Positions 4,956 through 51,597 of a stretch of DNA of 64,000 nucleotides are shown here, in pieces; position 1 is the first letter of the stretch, and each line of letters starts with the position of its first letter. The notes beneath the pieces were generated by a model, which did no database searches, was not told the DNA's origin, and saw only the letters and a program-made list of their open reading frames with translations. This stretch comes from Acidobacteriota bacterium (GTDB taxonomy: Bacteria; Acidobacteriota; Blastocatellia; UBA7656), in contig JBFMDH010000018.1 of NCBI GenBank assembly GCA_040754075.1, forward strand, positions 62,001-126,000, given 5' to 3'. Both the position numbers and the translations under genes were made by a program.

Positions 4956-5042
4956 CTATAAAAACTAGGTCTTGCCGGTTTACCCACCCATTGGAATTGC
5001 AATGTTCAAGCAACTCCAATACGCCATTTTTCGAGACCGCAT

Positions 5043-5080
5043 AAAAAACCCGATTTTATCGTATCAATCGAGTTTTTTTT
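5043..5080 (+). terminator. Rho-independent terminator-like hairpin
   Basis: Imperfect inverted repeat: A-rich arm with CCCGATT, a loop of about 9 bases, then AATCGAG running into eight T. One mismatch interrupts the stem. It lies in the 195-base gap after the ABC exporter and could end or attenuate the first half of the glycan operon before the second kinase gene. Confidence 0.55.
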
Positions 5081-5150
5081 GCCACTGTAAATAGAGGGTG
5101 AAAAGAGTCTTCAACTCACCCTTCGACTCAATCTTATCAGGAAGGCGAAC

Positions 5151-16579: not shown

Positions 16580-16591
16580 AACGATTCTTCA

Positions 16592-16627
16592 ACAACGGGT
16601 TCAAAAATAAGTTTTAGAACCCGTTGT
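16592..16627 (+). terminator. Hairpin after the VWFA gene
   Basis: Perfect 11-base stem ACAACGGGTTC / GAACCCGTTGT with a 14-base loop, 12 bases after the stop. No T-run follows, so it may be a weak terminator or an mRNA-protecting hairpin. Confidence 0.45.
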
Positions 16628-16748
16628 GCCATTCCAGCAAAACCCTCCTCTTATTTTCTAAAGACAATCAAGGGTTGATTGAAACCTTGCGCATTGTCCT
16701 GTTAAACGGGCAAGATGGGTGTTTTTATAAACCCTAATTTGTGAAGCT

Positions 16749-28570: not shown

Positions 28571-28948
28571 ATGAAAGAACCTGTGCAAACGGATAATGCC
28601 CCGAAAGCGATTGGTCCCTACTCCCAAGCCATTAAAGCCAATGGCATGGTTTTCGCCTCAGGACAAGTTCCTCTGGACCCGGCAACCGGTCAATTGATCA
28701 TCGGCACCATTGCGGAACAAACCGAGCGGATTTTTCATAACCTGAGTGCGGTGCTGGAAGCGGCAGGGACATCACTGGACAAGGTGGTTAAAACCACGGT
28801 TTTTCTTGCCGATATGAATGATTTTGGTGAAATGAATGAAGCCTATGCGCAGTTTTTCAACGACGTGCCACCGGCTAGGTCAACCGTAGAGGTTTCACGA
28901 TTACCTAAAGATGCGCGAGTCGAAATTGATGTGATTGCGCTTTTATAG
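28571..28948 (+). CDS. ridA: RidA family enamine/imine deaminase
   Basis: Protein of 125 residues, the standard YjgF/YER057c/UK114 length. It hydrolyses reactive enamines made by PLP enzymes. Seen are GPYSQAIKANGMVFASGQ, the substrate-binding Arg in PARSTVEV and the conserved Glu in VEIDVIAL. It lies alone after a 207-base gap in which I see no other gene. Confidence 0.95.
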   Translation: MKEPVQTDNAPKAIGPYSQAIKANGMVFASGQVPLDPATGQLIIGTIAEQTERIFHNLSAVLEAAGTSLDKVVKTTVFLADMNDFGEMNEAYAQFFNDVPPARSTVEVSRLPKDARVEIDVIALL

Positions 28949-28955
28949 GTGAGAA

Positions 28956-29009
28956 TTTCAAATCTCAAATTCTATTCAGATGTTGGTAAATGGAATTTGA
29001 GATTTGAAA
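28956..29009. terminator. Inverted repeat between convergent ridA and rpmB
   Basis: Perfect 17-base arms TTTCAAATCTCAAATTC and GAATTTGAGATTTGAAA with a 20-base loop. It sits in the gap between convergent genes and could act as a bidirectional terminator. It is AT-rich and palindromic, so a repeat origin is also possible. Confidence 0.6.
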
Positions 29010-29022
29010 ATTGAAGGTTTTA

Positions 29023-46210: not shown

Positions 46211-47659
46211 TCAAAGTCCAAGTTTTGACCAAATGGCATCGACTCGCTGTTTTACATCTTTGGTCATTTGCAATTCTTTAGGCCAGTTTCTGGTAAAGCC
46301 TTCGGATTTCCATTTGCGTGTGCCATCTATTCCCATCTTTGAACCATAGCTTGGCAATCGCGCCGCGTGGTCTAGCTGGTCAACCGGGCCGAACATAAAT
46401 TGAATATCGCGTTCCGGGTCGATGTTATTTAAAACGCGCCAGCTCACTTGATTCAAATCGCGAACATCGGTGTCATCGTCAACCACGATAATACATTTGG
46501 TGAACTGCGCCTGCGGCAATGACCAGACGGAATTCATCACTTTGCGGGCGTGCCCCGGATAATTCTTCCGAATCGCTACCACCATTAAATTGTGAAAGAC
46601 CCCGGCAAAGGGCATGTGATAATCGACGATTTCAGGAAATTGCCTTTGCATCAGTGGCAGGAAAATCCGTTCAATCGCTTCACCCATCCAACAATCTTCC
46701 ATCGGCGGTTTACCGACAATGGTGGTTTGATAAATCGGCTTTTTGCGATGCGTGATGCAGGTAATATGAAAAACCGGGAATTCGTCTTCAAGGGTATAAA
46801 AACCTGTGTGGTCGCCAAACGGGCCTTCGATTCTTTTTTCGTCGCTGTCGACATAGCCTTCAAGAACGATTTCAGCATTGGCGGGCACTTCGATATTAAC
46901 CGTTTCGCATTTCACCATTTCAACAGGTTTTTCGCGCAAAAATCCGGCAATCATCATTTCGTCCAAATCGTCCGGCAACGGCATAATGGCTGCGAACGTG
47001 GTAATCGGGTCAGTGCCAATTGCTACGGCTACTTCCAGTCTGCCGCCTCCCTGACGTTTCAACATCCGCAAATGATTGGCTCCTTGTTTATGCACCTGCC
47101 AGTGCATTCCTGTGGTGGTTTCATCATAAACCTGCATCCGGTACATTCCGCAATTGCGCTTACCGGTTTCAGGATTTTTGGTAAACACCAAAGGCAGGGT
47201 GATGAAGCGCCCGCCATCTTCGGGCCAGCATTTGATGATAGGAAAATCCCAGAGCGAGAATTCGCCTTCTTTTAAAATCACATCCTTGCACTCGCCATCT
47301 TTAACAATCTTGGGAAACATTTTTCCAAGGTCAGCGAGTCGCGGAACCATTTTGATTTTATCAATCAACCCTTGCGGCGATTTGACATCGGTGAGTTCGG
47401 AAATTCGTTCGGTAATATCCGAATAATCTTTAATCCCAAGCGCGAGTTTCATGCGTTCGCGACTGCCCATCGCATTAATCAGCACAGGGATGGTGTATCC
47501 ACGAATATTCTCAAAAAGTAGCGCCGGACCAACCTGTTTGGATACCCGGTCGGTGATCTCGGTAATCTCAAGTTCGGCGTCTACTTCTGCGCGAATACGT
47601 TTCAATTCCCCGTGTTTTTCGAGAGTTTTAATGAATTCTCGTAAATCAGCTATTGGCAT
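46211..47659 (-). CDS. UbiD family decarboxylase
   Basis: Protein of 482 residues, typical of prenylated-FMN-dependent UbiD decarboxylases. Family segments are LLFENIRGYTIPVLINAMG, NCGMYRMQV, HWQVHKQGANHLRMLK and EGPFGDHTGFY. It decarboxylates aromatic or unsaturated acids, for example in quinone synthesis. No ubiX is in the window. Tightly coupled to the acyl-CoA synthetase fusion downstream, so an acid-to-CoA-ester pathway is also possible. Confidence 0.9.
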   Translation of the reverse strand: MPIADLREFIKTLEKHGELKRIRAEVDAELEITEITDRVSKQVGPALLFENIRGYTIPVLINAMGSRERMKLALGIKDYSDITERISELTDVKSPQGLIDKIKMVPRLADLGKMFPKIVKDGECKDVILKEGEFSLWDFPIIKCWPEDGGRFITLPLVFTKNPETGKRNCGMYRMQVYDETTTGMHWQVHKQGANHLRMLKRQGGGRLEVAVAIGTDPITTFAAIMPLPDDLDEMMIAGFLREKPVEMVKCETVNIEVPANAEIVLEGYVDSDEKRIEGPFGDHTGFYTLEDEFPVFHITCITHRKKPIYQTTIVGKPPMEDCWMGEAIERIFLPLMQRQFPEIVDYHMPFAGVFHNLMVVAIRKNYPGHARKVMNSVWSLPQAQFTKCIIVVDDDTDVRDLNQVSWRVLNNIDPERDIQFMFGPVDQLDHAARLPSYGSKMGIDGTRKWKSEGFTRNWPKELQMTKDVKQRVDAIWSKLGL

Positions 47660-48073
47660 AAATTCACCCGTTAAAATTCAAAACCTCGAAGGCTTTGAAT
47701 GCAAATATAAAATGTGGGTTCCGTCTATTCGGATGCAATCAATAAAAGGGGAGCGTAACACGCAGATTTGTTGAAGACAAATATTGCCCGAATAGATTTT
47801 TTGCGCGCTGAAAAAAATTTGAAAAAAGTATTGAATAATCGCAAGTCTTGCCTTTAACTGAGCAAGACCTTCCCTTTAAAGAATTTGTGTACTTTAAAGA
47901 GCGACCTGATGCCCAAACAGGTTAGCGTCAGTTTTGAATTTTGCGTTCAACTGCCACACCTAAAACTGACTTTCAAATTTCAATAGGGGTTTTCCATCTA
48001 TTGAAAATCACTGCAGGTGAACTTGCCGAGTAATCACCCCCGAGCGAGCAAGTAAAACAGGAGAATATTTATT
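47660..48073. other. Structured divergent region and leader of the C25 protease gene
   Basis: No gene seen. From 47845 on there are six successive pairings: GTCTTGC/GCAAGAC (47845-47868), CTTTAAAG twice (47874-47899), ACCTG/CAGGT (47904-47922), GTCAGTTTT/AAAACTGAC (47927-47970), TTTCAATAG/CTATTGAAA (47978-48006) and ACTTGC/GCAAGT (48021-48053). AGGAG then precedes the protease ATG. This density in 210 bases suggests a structured 5' leader. Confidence 0.5.
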
Positions 48074-51000
48074 ATGAGAATCGTGGGAAAATTGTGTCTG
48101 AACCGTTTTGTGAAAAGAATAACGAATAGCGAATCTACCAACCTGCCCTTTTCATTCCCTCGTTTAATAATCAAGTCAATTCCAATTGCCTTATTTCTTT
48201 TATTGACAATTCACACGGCTGAGGCAGTTACGGTTGGAACAGTCGGCTCAACTGACACGGGAAATGCAACTGCTACGAGTTTGAGCATCACGCCATTTAG
48301 CGTTACCGGGAGCGCGACCTATTTAGTTGTCGGTGTCTCAATTGAAACCTCTACAATAACCGTGAGTGGCGTCACCGTTGGCTCCAGTTCATTGAGTTTT
48401 GTGGGAAGACAAATCAAGTTAGGAACCTCAAATAAGCCACCGGTAACCATCGAAATCTGGGCATTGGTCAATCCGCCCACAGGTTCACAGACGATTACCG
48501 CAACTTTAAGCTCCGCTGCAAAATTCGTAGTCGGTGCGGTGTTGTTTACGGGTGTTGATCAAACCAATCCAACGACTGGATTTGTCTCAACTTCAGGTCA
48601 CGCGACTCCTATTAGTTTGACCGTACCAAGTTCAACCGGCGATTTAGTTGTTGATGTTTATGGAAGAAACGATCCGAGCAACACCGACCCGCAAGATACA
48701 GTTGCTCAAATCGAGCATCTGGATACCAAGACGAATTCGGTTTCGCTTTCAATGAGTACCAAAAGCGGAGCAGCACCTACTATCACAATGGACTGGGCTG
48801 TCACGGGTGGCGGTAACGATTGGGCATTGGGAGCCATTTCCATCAAATCGTTGGGACCGACGCTTGCCACGGTTAATTCGTTTTCTGCCTTTCCATCTAA
48901 AAACGGCAAAGTCACGCTCAAATGGGATACCCGTTATGAAGTTGATAATCTGGGGTTCAATATTTACCGTGAACAGGATGGCAAACTTACATTAATAACC
49001 CCCAATATCTTAGCGGGTTCTGCGCTTGAAGCCGGAAAAGGCATCGCTTTGACTTCAGGCAAATCATACGTTTGGACAGACAAAACGGCGAGTAAGATAA
49101 CTTCCGCCCGTTACTGGATCGAAGATATAGATCTCAGAGGCGAAAAGACTTTACATGGTCCCGTGTATGTCGATTCCTCTAAATCTTCGGAAAGGGTTTT
49201 TAGTGAAGGCGCCAACGAATTACTTTCGCTTAGAGAAATCCATAGCCAGGCTGAAAATCTTCAAACCGAAGTTGACACCAAGCCAGTTGAAGATGCGATG
49301 GAGTTAGCGAAATTCAGTCAGGCAAAACAGGCATACAACCTCAACGCCACCAGTCAGGCATCAGCGAAAATCAACATTAAATCAACCGGGTGGTATAAAG
49401 TCGGACAACCTGATTTGATTGCTGCCGGTTTTCCCTCCAACGTTGATCCTCGAAAATTGCAACTCTATGTTGATGGTCGTCAGGTAGCGATGCGGGTAAA
49501 TGGTCAGGCGGACGGAAAATTCGATGCTACCGATAGCCTTGAATTTTATGGCGTGGCGTTGAATTCGATAGAAACCGATAAACACGCTTACTGGTTGGTT
49601 GCCGGTAACGAAGCCGGATTACGTATCAATCAAGTTAAAGCTGCCGCTGATAATCCTTCGCAAACCAGTTTCGATTATTCGGTTGAAATCAAAGATCGAT
49701 TTATCTATTTCTCCGGTTTGTTAAACGGCGATGAAGAAAATTTCTTTGGCAGCCTGATTACCGCTTATCCCACCAACAAAATATTAACGGCAACAAATCT
49801 CGACTCCGGTTTTGAAGGCAATGCCAAGCTTGAAATCGCTTTACAAGGGGTCACGGATTTACCCGGAAACGAAGACCATCGGGTTAAAGTTATAGTAAAT
49901 GGAAATCCGGTAGGGACACTGGTATTTGATGGCACTAACCGAAGTTCTCAGGTTTTCTCGATACCGCAATCCCTGTTGACCGCAAGAAACACCGTCACCT
50001 TAAACAGTTTGTCGGGTGGAATGGATTATACGCTTGTGGATTTCATTCGCCTCACCTATCGCCGCACCTATACAGCGGATGCTGACAAGCTGAGAATGAC
50101 TGTAGAGGCTAACCAGACCCGGCAAGTGGTGACGGGATTTTCCACTGATAAAGTTCGCGTTATTGACATCACCAATCCTGAATTACCGACTGAATTTGCC
50201 ACGACGGCTCATCGGGAAGGTGACGGCTACGGTGTAACTTTCGGCCTGGCTGATGCAGACACCCATACAGTGCTTGCACTCGCAGAAAATCGTTTTCTCT
50301 CCCCTTCTTCAATTAAATTGGTGAACAAAACCAATTTACGCGGGAAAGCGAATCAGGCCGATTTATTAATTATTACGAATGGCAATTTCAGCAATGCACT
50401 GAATCCGCTGGTTGCGCTGCGTCGCAGCCAGGGGTTACGCCCGGTCGTTGTTGATGTCGAAGACATCTATAACGAATTTGCCTTCGGACAGAAATCGACT
50501 CAGGCAATTAAAAACTTTCTTTCATATGCCTATAGCTTGTGGAGCACTCCCCCGCGTTATGTGCTTTTTGTGGGCGATGCTTCATACGATATGAAGAATT
50601 ATTTAGGATTTGGCGAAGTCGATTTCGTTCCCAGCAAATTAATTGATACGGCGGTTTTCCAAACTGCAAGTGATGATTGGTTTGCCGATTTTAATAATGA
50701 GGGGGTTCCCGTAATGTATGTCGGACGTTTGCCCGGACGTACCGCTTCGGAAGTTTCACAAATGGTTGCCAAGCTCGAAAACTATGAAAAGGCATCTGGT
50801 TTAAGCAAGAGCGCATTAATGATTGCGGATACAAATGATGGTTTTAATTTCGAGGCTGGGTCGATGACTGTGCAATCCCTGTTGCCCGCCGGAACCAATG
50901 CCGACCTGGTTTTCCGTTCACGAAACAGTGACGATAAAAATCGAACTGATGTCTTATCGTTCATTAACAATGGTCAACAGGTGGTCAATTACCTCGGTCA

Positions 51001-51382
51001 CGGAGCAATCAGTTTTACCAGAGGCAATCTATTATCAAGCGACGCCGTTTCGCATATGGAAAATACCGGGCAGTTTCCGCTCTTTGTAATGATGACCTGT
51101 TTAACCGGGTACTTTGAAGATGCGTTGAATGAATCGCTCGCTGAAACTCTTGTTAAGGCAGATCAAAGCGGCGCCATAGCTGTCTGGGCTTCATCGGCAA
51201 TTTGTCCGCCGGATGCACAGGCGGAAATGAACCTTGAGTTGATGAAAGCGTTATTCGGTTCATCCCAAAGTAAACCGCTGACGCTCGGTGAAGCGGCAGC
51301 CAAAGCCAAAGCCGCTACCGCAAACGTCGATGTTCGTAGAACCTGGATTTTATTCGGCGATCCATCAATGAAGCTGAAATAA
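48074..51382 (+). CDS. Secreted C25 (gingipain-like) cysteine peptidase
   Basis: Protein of 1102 residues. A long basic n-region precedes a hydrophobic core (about 34-48), with likely cleavage after HTAEA. Beta-rich domains at about 52-260 and an FnIII-like unit near 275-370 come next, then a gingipain-type propeptide region. The C25 peptidase domain (about 760-1102) has the catalytic His in YLGHGAIS (H976) and Cys in MMTCLTG (C1009). The chain ends at GDPSMKLK, right after the peptidase domain, without a type IX secretion C-terminal domain. It probably cleaves proteins at the cell surface or outside. The structured leader and a downstream terminator frame it as a single unit. Confidence 0.82.
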   Translation: MRIVGKLCLNRFVKRITNSESTNLPFSFPRLIIKSIPIALFLLLTIHTAEAVTVGTVGSTDTGNATATSLSITPFSVTGSATYLVVGVSIETSTITVSGVTVGSSSLSFVGRQIKLGTSNKPPVTIEIWALVNPPTGSQTITATLSSAAKFVVGAVLFTGVDQTNPTTGFVSTSGHATPISLTVPSSTGDLVVDVYGRNDPSNTDPQDTVAQIEHLDTKTNSVSLSMSTKSGAAPTITMDWAVTGGGNDWALGAISIKSLGPTLATVNSFSAFPSKNGKVTLKWDTRYEVDNLGFNIYREQDGKLTLITPNILAGSALEAGKGIALTSGKSYVWTDKTASKITSARYWIEDIDLRGEKTLHGPVYVDSSKSSERVFSEGANELLSLREIHSQAENLQTEVDTKPVEDAMELAKFSQAKQAYNLNATSQASAKINIKSTGWYKVGQPDLIAAGFPSNVDPRKLQLYVDGRQVAMRVNGQADGKFDATDSLEFYGVALNSIETDKHAYWLVAGNEAGLRINQVKAAADNPSQTSFDYSVEIKDRFIYFSGLLNGDEENFFGSLITAYPTNKILTATNLDSGFEGNAKLEIALQGVTDLPGNEDHRVKVIVNGNPVGTLVFDGTNRSSQVFSIPQSLLTARNTVTLNSLSGGMDYTLVDFIRLTYRRTYTADADKLRMTVEANQTRQVVTGFSTDKVRVIDITNPELPTEFATTAHREGDGYGVTFGLADADTHTVLALAENRFLSPSSIKLVNKTNLRGKANQADLLIITNGNFSNALNPLVALRRSQGLRPVVVDVEDIYNEFAFGQKSTQAIKNFLSYAYSLWSTPPRYVLFVGDASYDMKNYLGFGEVDFVPSKLIDTAVFQTASDDWFADFNNEGVPVMYVGRLPGRTASEVSQMVAKLENYEKASGLSKSALMIADTNDGFNFEAGSMTVQSLLPAGTNADLVFRSRNSDDKNRTDVLSFINNGQQVVNYLGHGAISFTRGNLLSSDAVSHMENTGQFPLFVMMTCLTGYFEDALNESLAETLVKADQSGAIAVWASSAICPPDAQAEMNLELMKALFGSSQSKPLTLGEAAAKAKAATANVDVRRTWILFGDPSMKLK

Positions 51383-51402
51383 AATCATTCTTCTAAATTA
51401 GC

Positions 51403-51452
51403 AGGGCGGATTAGACGAGCAGATTTTTCGTTTGATCCGCCCTTTTCATTTT
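51403..51452 (+). terminator. Rho-independent terminator of the C25 gene
   Basis: 16-base stem AGGGCGGATTAGACGA / TCGTTTGATCCGCCCT with two G-U wobbles, a 9-base loop and a T-rich tail, 20 bases after the stop. Confidence 0.85.
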
Positions 51453-51516
51453 ATGAAATCCATTCTCATCCTCTACTTTTGATTAACGGGTGAAGAGATT
51501 TGTTGAAACTTGGCGC

Positions 51517-51546
51517 TTTCGCAATCCGTTATGCAAATTCTATAAT
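51517..51546 (+). promoter_or_regulatory. Promoter candidate of the TPR gene
   Basis: Perfect -10 box TATAAT with a weak -35 TTTCGC 18 bases upstream, 52 bases before the ATG. Confidence 0.4.
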
Positions 51547-51597
51547 CCGGTTAGTCTTGGGCATTCGTATATTAGACTTGAATACGAGGTAAAGTAG

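Follow-up and report, generated by a model that had tools for sequence, protein, structure and literature searches.

A row of predicted hairpins ahead of a C25 peptidase gene in an Acidobacteriota genome, tentatively read as a lineage-specific 5′ leader

The intergenic region upstream of a C25 peptidase gene in an Acidobacteriota bacterium (assembly GCA_040754075.1) carries a row of perfect inverted repeats whose tandem arrangement exceeds that of shuffled sequence and of the other leaders sampled from the same genome. The initial annotation of the window (the whole stretch of DNA analysed, 64 kb) had counted six successive perfect pairings in about 210 bases, two of them with 9 bp, that end just before a ribosome site. 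All six are present, and the last one extends to 48053, ahead of an AGGAG sequence at 48059-48063. We tentatively read the row as a structured leader at the 5′ end of the C25 mRNA, specific to this lineage, that may act on transcript stability or on the start of translation, a reading that we regard as possible rather than probable. The structured RNA leader proposed in the annotation finds support, as a prediction, in tandem stems that surpass both shuffles and the other leaders of the genome, but none of the relatives examined was found to have it.

The gap is 414 nt long (47660..48073) and separates two divergent genes. The gene on the − strand (46211-47659) encodes a UbiD-type decarboxylase whose score for NCBIfam TIGR03701 (menaquinone biosynthesis decarboxylase) exceeds the cut-off. 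The gene on the + strand (48074-51382) encodes a C25 peptidase of 1102 aa (Pfam PF01364, E 6.2e-84) whose N-terminal part contains a hydrophobic segment, by visual judgement a signal peptide; the product of the gene downstream of the hairpins is probably a secreted protease. This protein also matches models of the type IX sortase PorU, at scores well below their cut-offs. The open frame of the C25 gene starts at 48056, and the sole start codon ahead of its matched part is the ATG at 48074, an assignment supported by the paralogues, which likewise have 20-35 residues before the hydrophobic segment (judged by eye). The AGGAG on the + strand, ten bases before this ATG, is the probable ribosome-binding site of the gene. 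In the predicted folds the ribosome site (48060-48064) is unpaired with a probability of 0.26-0.39, and the start codon, engaged in A/T-rich pairs in folds that include the start of the ORF, with a probability of 0.03-0.07. Since the upstream gene is divergent, a C25 promoter, should the gene have one of its own, must sit within these 414 nt. A simple scan of the + strand between 46500 and 49000 detected no promoter-like site, and no terminator-like site was found in 47660-48073.

The stems are named hp1 to hp6 in their order on the + strand. hp1 pairs GTCTTGC (47845-47851) with GCAAGAC (47862-47868) in 7 bp around a 10-nt loop; its folding energy corresponds to a z of −3.6 when taken alone and its predicted pair probability is 0.97-0.98. 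In hp2, CTTTAAAG (47874-47881) faces CTTTAAAG (47892-47899), with 8 bp and a 10-nt loop (z −3.0; pair probability 0.99). hp3 is a perfect stem of 5 bp, ACCTG (47904-47908) with CAGGT (47918-47922), that gains further pairs in the predicted fold (z −1.75; pair probability 0.99-1.00). The two 9-bp stems are hp4, formed by GTCAGTTTT (47927-47935) and AAAACTGAC (47962-47970) with a 26-nt loop (z −3.1; pair probability 0.99), and hp5, formed by TTTCAATAG (47978-47986) and CTATTGAAA (47998-48006) with an 11-nt loop (z −3.9; pair probability 0.85-0.96). hp1 to hp5 are predicted at 0.85-1.00, that is in nearly all states of the ensemble, in four contexts of different length. The 6-bp stem hp6, ACTTGC (48021-48026) with GCAAGT (48048-48053), is not robust in the predicted folds: its pair probability varies with the flanks from 0.80 down to 0.03, the latter in the longest context, and its region has a z of −1.3. 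It competes with a pairing of GGTGA (48016-48020) and TCACC (48034-48038), whose probability is 0.03-0.87. A possible closing helix around hp1-hp4, AAATTTGAAA (47815-47824) with TTTCAAATTT (47971-47980) on the + strand, reaches a probability of 0.45-0.67; it is A/T-rich and weak, and its 3′ arm shares three bases with hp5. The six stems differ from one another in arm sequence and spacing, and only hp1 and hp6 have a motif in common (CTTGCC...GAGCAAG). Switching between hp1 and hp6 by means of this motif was considered and rejected, the cross-pairings having a probability of 0.00. Ahead of the hairpin row, at 47724-47796, TCTATTCGG and CCGAATAGA, 55 nt apart, can pair over 9 bp and enclose two small hairpins; the longer fold predicts this pairing at a probability of 1.00.

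Four of the stems in 47840-48073 (hp1, hp2, hp4 and hp5) are non-overlapping, perfect and at least 7 bp long, with a summed length of 33, and neither their count nor this length was matched in any of 400 dinucleotide shuffles. When stems of at least 5 bp are admitted, six in a row occur in 12 of the 400 shuffles, so that hp3 and hp6 add little, while a summed length of 44 occurs in none. The background for comparison comprised 141 leaders, namely gaps of at least 150 nt in the window and in 20 sampled stretches (400 kb) of the same genome. The hairpin row ranks first among them for tandem stems of at least 7 bp; its own opposite strand has three such stems and every other leader at most two. 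A scan of 986,457 of the 7,579,192 bases of the genome (13%; a non-random sample, 11 stretches of which were chosen for their C25 genes) located one cluster of five stems of at least 7 bp within 234 nt. It is the one studied here, its fifth stem being an A/T-only inverted repeat at 47796-47818. Three other clusters of four such stems were found in the sample, all within ORFs, and one shuffle of the sample gave a single four-stem cluster and no five-stem cluster.

By folding energy the leader is ordinary for its genome. The segment 47840-48073 folds with a z of −3.89 on the + strand (200 shuffles) and of −3.3 on the opposite strand; the corresponding values for the whole 414-nt gap are −3.59 (+) and −4.07 (−). 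The leader ranks 17th of the 141 (z −3.65; the top 45 re-run with 150 shuffles), or 23rd with 30 shuffles, and 23 of the 141 have a z of −3 or lower. The density had been described as far above that of other gaps, which holds for tandem perfect stems but not for folding energy. Other gaps of the window have z values of −4.4 (28784-29017, partly within a RidA-type ORF), −3.9 (4956-5150), −3.4 (16580-16748) and −3.1 (51383-51597), and large intergenic palindromes account for part of this energy background in the genome. The RidA-type ORF (28571-28948; Pfam PF01042, E 4.8e-46) falls in a gap of the 130-aa ORF list; a long inverted repeat comes after it, at about 28953-29011.

Searches for relatives of the leader returned the leader itself. 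No Rfam family reached its gathering score anywhere in the window, and a relaxed search, extended to E 5, gave two matches that fall far short of that score, the better of which (E 1.1) is to a microRNA model on the other strand. DNA comparison with 58 genomes matched one of them, the genome of origin. In the family of seven genomes, comparison at E up to 1 gave matches of 18-34 bases only, the best being an exact one of 18 bases in the genome of origin (E 0.13) without hairpin context. No DNA relative was found among plasmids and phages, and neither DNA comparison nor a covariance model detected a second copy in the genome. This model covers 47843-48007 and, being built from a single sequence entered twice, is of limited reach. 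It matched only itself in the 58 relatives (the genome of origin counted), with stricter filters that lose weak matches. The same filters were applied to 396 genomes drawn evenly from the phylum (the genome of origin included, and overlapping with the 58), where it matched only itself among the candidates scored, of which there were at most seven per listed genome. Over 826 kb the model gave itself and three single-hairpin chance matches (E 0.27, 2.1 and 2.3). As far as these sequences show, the hairpin row appears private to its lineage. The annotation had named the lack of a conserved leader in relatives as a result that would count against it, and this is the result obtained. The genomes searched include no second member of the genus and their nearest C25 protein is 43% identical, so that this test of conservation has little power. 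The literature searched on leaders of C25 and gingipain genes gave no report of such a leader.

In the loci compared, neither of the two flanking genes carries the structure elsewhere. The genome has 13 C25 peptidase matches (48074-51382 and 12 further places), and the C25 leaders compared, 29 of 70 listed places, are that of the window, those of the 12 paralogues and 16 in relatives; the start codon of each gene was set at the earliest ATG of its frame, a choice that may be mistaken in places. Apart from that of the window, each of these leaders has at most two perfect stems of at least 7 bp, and two of the 28 reach a z of −3 or lower (L032, −3.5; L046, −4.0). A common control of C25 genes is therefore not indicated. 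Words of 8-10 bases are about as common between the window leader and the paralogue leaders as between it and the other leaders (for 8-mers, 78 in the 4,800 bases of the 12 paralogue leaders vs 373 in 26,279 bases of the others). A UbiD match was obtained in 19 of the 19 genomes searched. In the 11 relatives whose UbiD is 66-85% identical, the last 234 nt upstream of the gene hold at most two perfect stems of at least 7 bp. The upstream neighbours of the UbiD orthologues differ among relatives, and a C25 gene stands beside UbiD only in the locus studied here, tblastn having detected no such gene in the corresponding loci of relatives, which include about 1.5 kb upstream. The absence of the stems at these 11 genes and of the C25 neighbour outside this locus indicates that the structure is not attached to UbiD.

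The row could also be explained at the level of DNA, as palindromes in a divergent promoter region that serve as binding sites, or that are decaying sequence, and have no role as RNA. The stems are perfect Watson-Crick pairings, the gap must hold two divergent promoters, and other inverted repeats abound in the gaps of this genome. The two strands hardly differ in how well they fold, so that the data do not prefer an RNA on the + strand to DNA palindromes or to the opposite strand, which speaks against a confident claim for such an RNA. The differences in arm sequence and spacing are, however, unlike repeated operators, with only the hp1/hp6 motif being common to two stems, and fit better with a role for shape; we hold the DNA explanation to be unlikely. 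To attribute the row to chance, as the densest of many places noticed because stems were being sought, appears rather unlikely to us. The place was indeed chosen after the fact, its energy z is ordinary and other four-stem clusters exist, but the shuffles, the rank among 141 leaders and the uniqueness of the five-stem cluster in 986 kb, not reproduced by the one shuffle of that sample, argue against it.

Two further readings ascribe a regulatory function to the RNA. In one of them a small ORF of 25 codons on the + strand (47909-47986, ATG to TAG) would be translated, and its ribosomes would melt hp3-hp5 and so alter how the RNA folds before the C25 ribosome site. This candidate is preceded by AAAGAG (47896-47901), seven bases before its ATG, its stop falls exactly where the 5′ arm of hp5 ends, and its start is predicted to be unpaired at 0.80. 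An ATG ORF of this length is equalled in 25% of shuffles when length alone is considered, and in 3.3% when a loose ribosome site is also demanded. The ORF was picked after the fact among many possible features, though, and its AAAGAG is largely paired in hp2 (0.18 unpaired). There is a precedent for control of bacterial genes by small ORFs over alternative stem-loops, namely mgtQ, which acts in this way on mgtB of Salmonella (PMC8092293). In both cases stems upstream of a gene are overlapped by a small ORF. They differ in that the predicted folds gave no alternative pairing of hp5 with the C25 ribosome site that would free or hide this site, and the peptides are unrelated by eye. Neither is an attenuator indicated, as no terminator-like site was found in the gap and the sole alternatives scored, the hp1/hp6 cross-pairings, have a probability of 0.00. 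We consider such control by a leader peptide decidedly unlikely. The other reading, an unrecognised riboswitch or another conserved regulatory RNA with relatives outside the collections, had been raised in the initial annotation and is very unlikely. The leader shares with riboswitches and Rfam cis-regulatory RNAs a multi-stem organization ahead of a ribosome site, and the possible closing helix around four hairpins and the competing pairings at hp6 would suit it. It differs from them in matching no family at gathering score. No terminator-like site was found in the gap, no second copy in the genome, and no counterpart by the covariance model in the 58 relatives and 396 phylum genomes; the proposal finds no support.

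According to the reading that we prefer, a structured leader specific to this lineage, transcription would start in the A/T-rich stretch near 47795-47840, which would place the hairpins within the C25 mRNA leader. This leader would then consist of five robust hairpins in a row and, after them, a short single-stranded stretch that holds the ribosome site. The hairpin near the 5′ end and the packed stems might shield the long transcript from nucleases, and the fold of the leader might set how open the C25 ribosome site is; ligand sensing would not be needed. That the row is a new multi-hairpin regulatory leader of one of the 13 C25 genes, and belongs to an RNA class known so far from one genome, to which a closing helix enclosing four hairpins and a ribosome-governed small ORF might belong as well, is very doubtful. 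The ompA leader likewise arranges its hairpins in series and leaves the part that carries the ribosome site open after them, and its hairpin near the 5′ end is protective. The predicted C25 leader resembles it in this layout but packs five to six hairpins into about 210 nt and comes from a different phylum; no sequence relation is claimed. Stabilization of an mRNA by elements of its 5′ UTR is an established mechanism, described for ompA (PMC2777011). If the hairpins act, they would form a structured leader on a peptidase gene in a little-studied phylum, and a reminder that such leaders may be of too recent origin for covariation; if they do not, the locus shows, in a calibrated way, how a conspicuous series of stem-loops can stand alone with no comparative support. 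The interest is modest in either case.

The intergenic gaps of this genome also contain tandem 7-base units (examples are L079:1270-1419, L083:19241-19408, L088:5910-6081 and L089:18319-18564), with 38 runs of at least 21 bases in 986 kb; runs with periods of 5, 6, 8, 9, 10 and 11 number 0-5 each (with slightly longer limits for 10 and 11). We take these 7-base runs to resemble the heptamer repeats of cyanobacteria. For three of them an inverted partner lies no more than 300 bases away, and some fold into long hairpins with z down to about −9.
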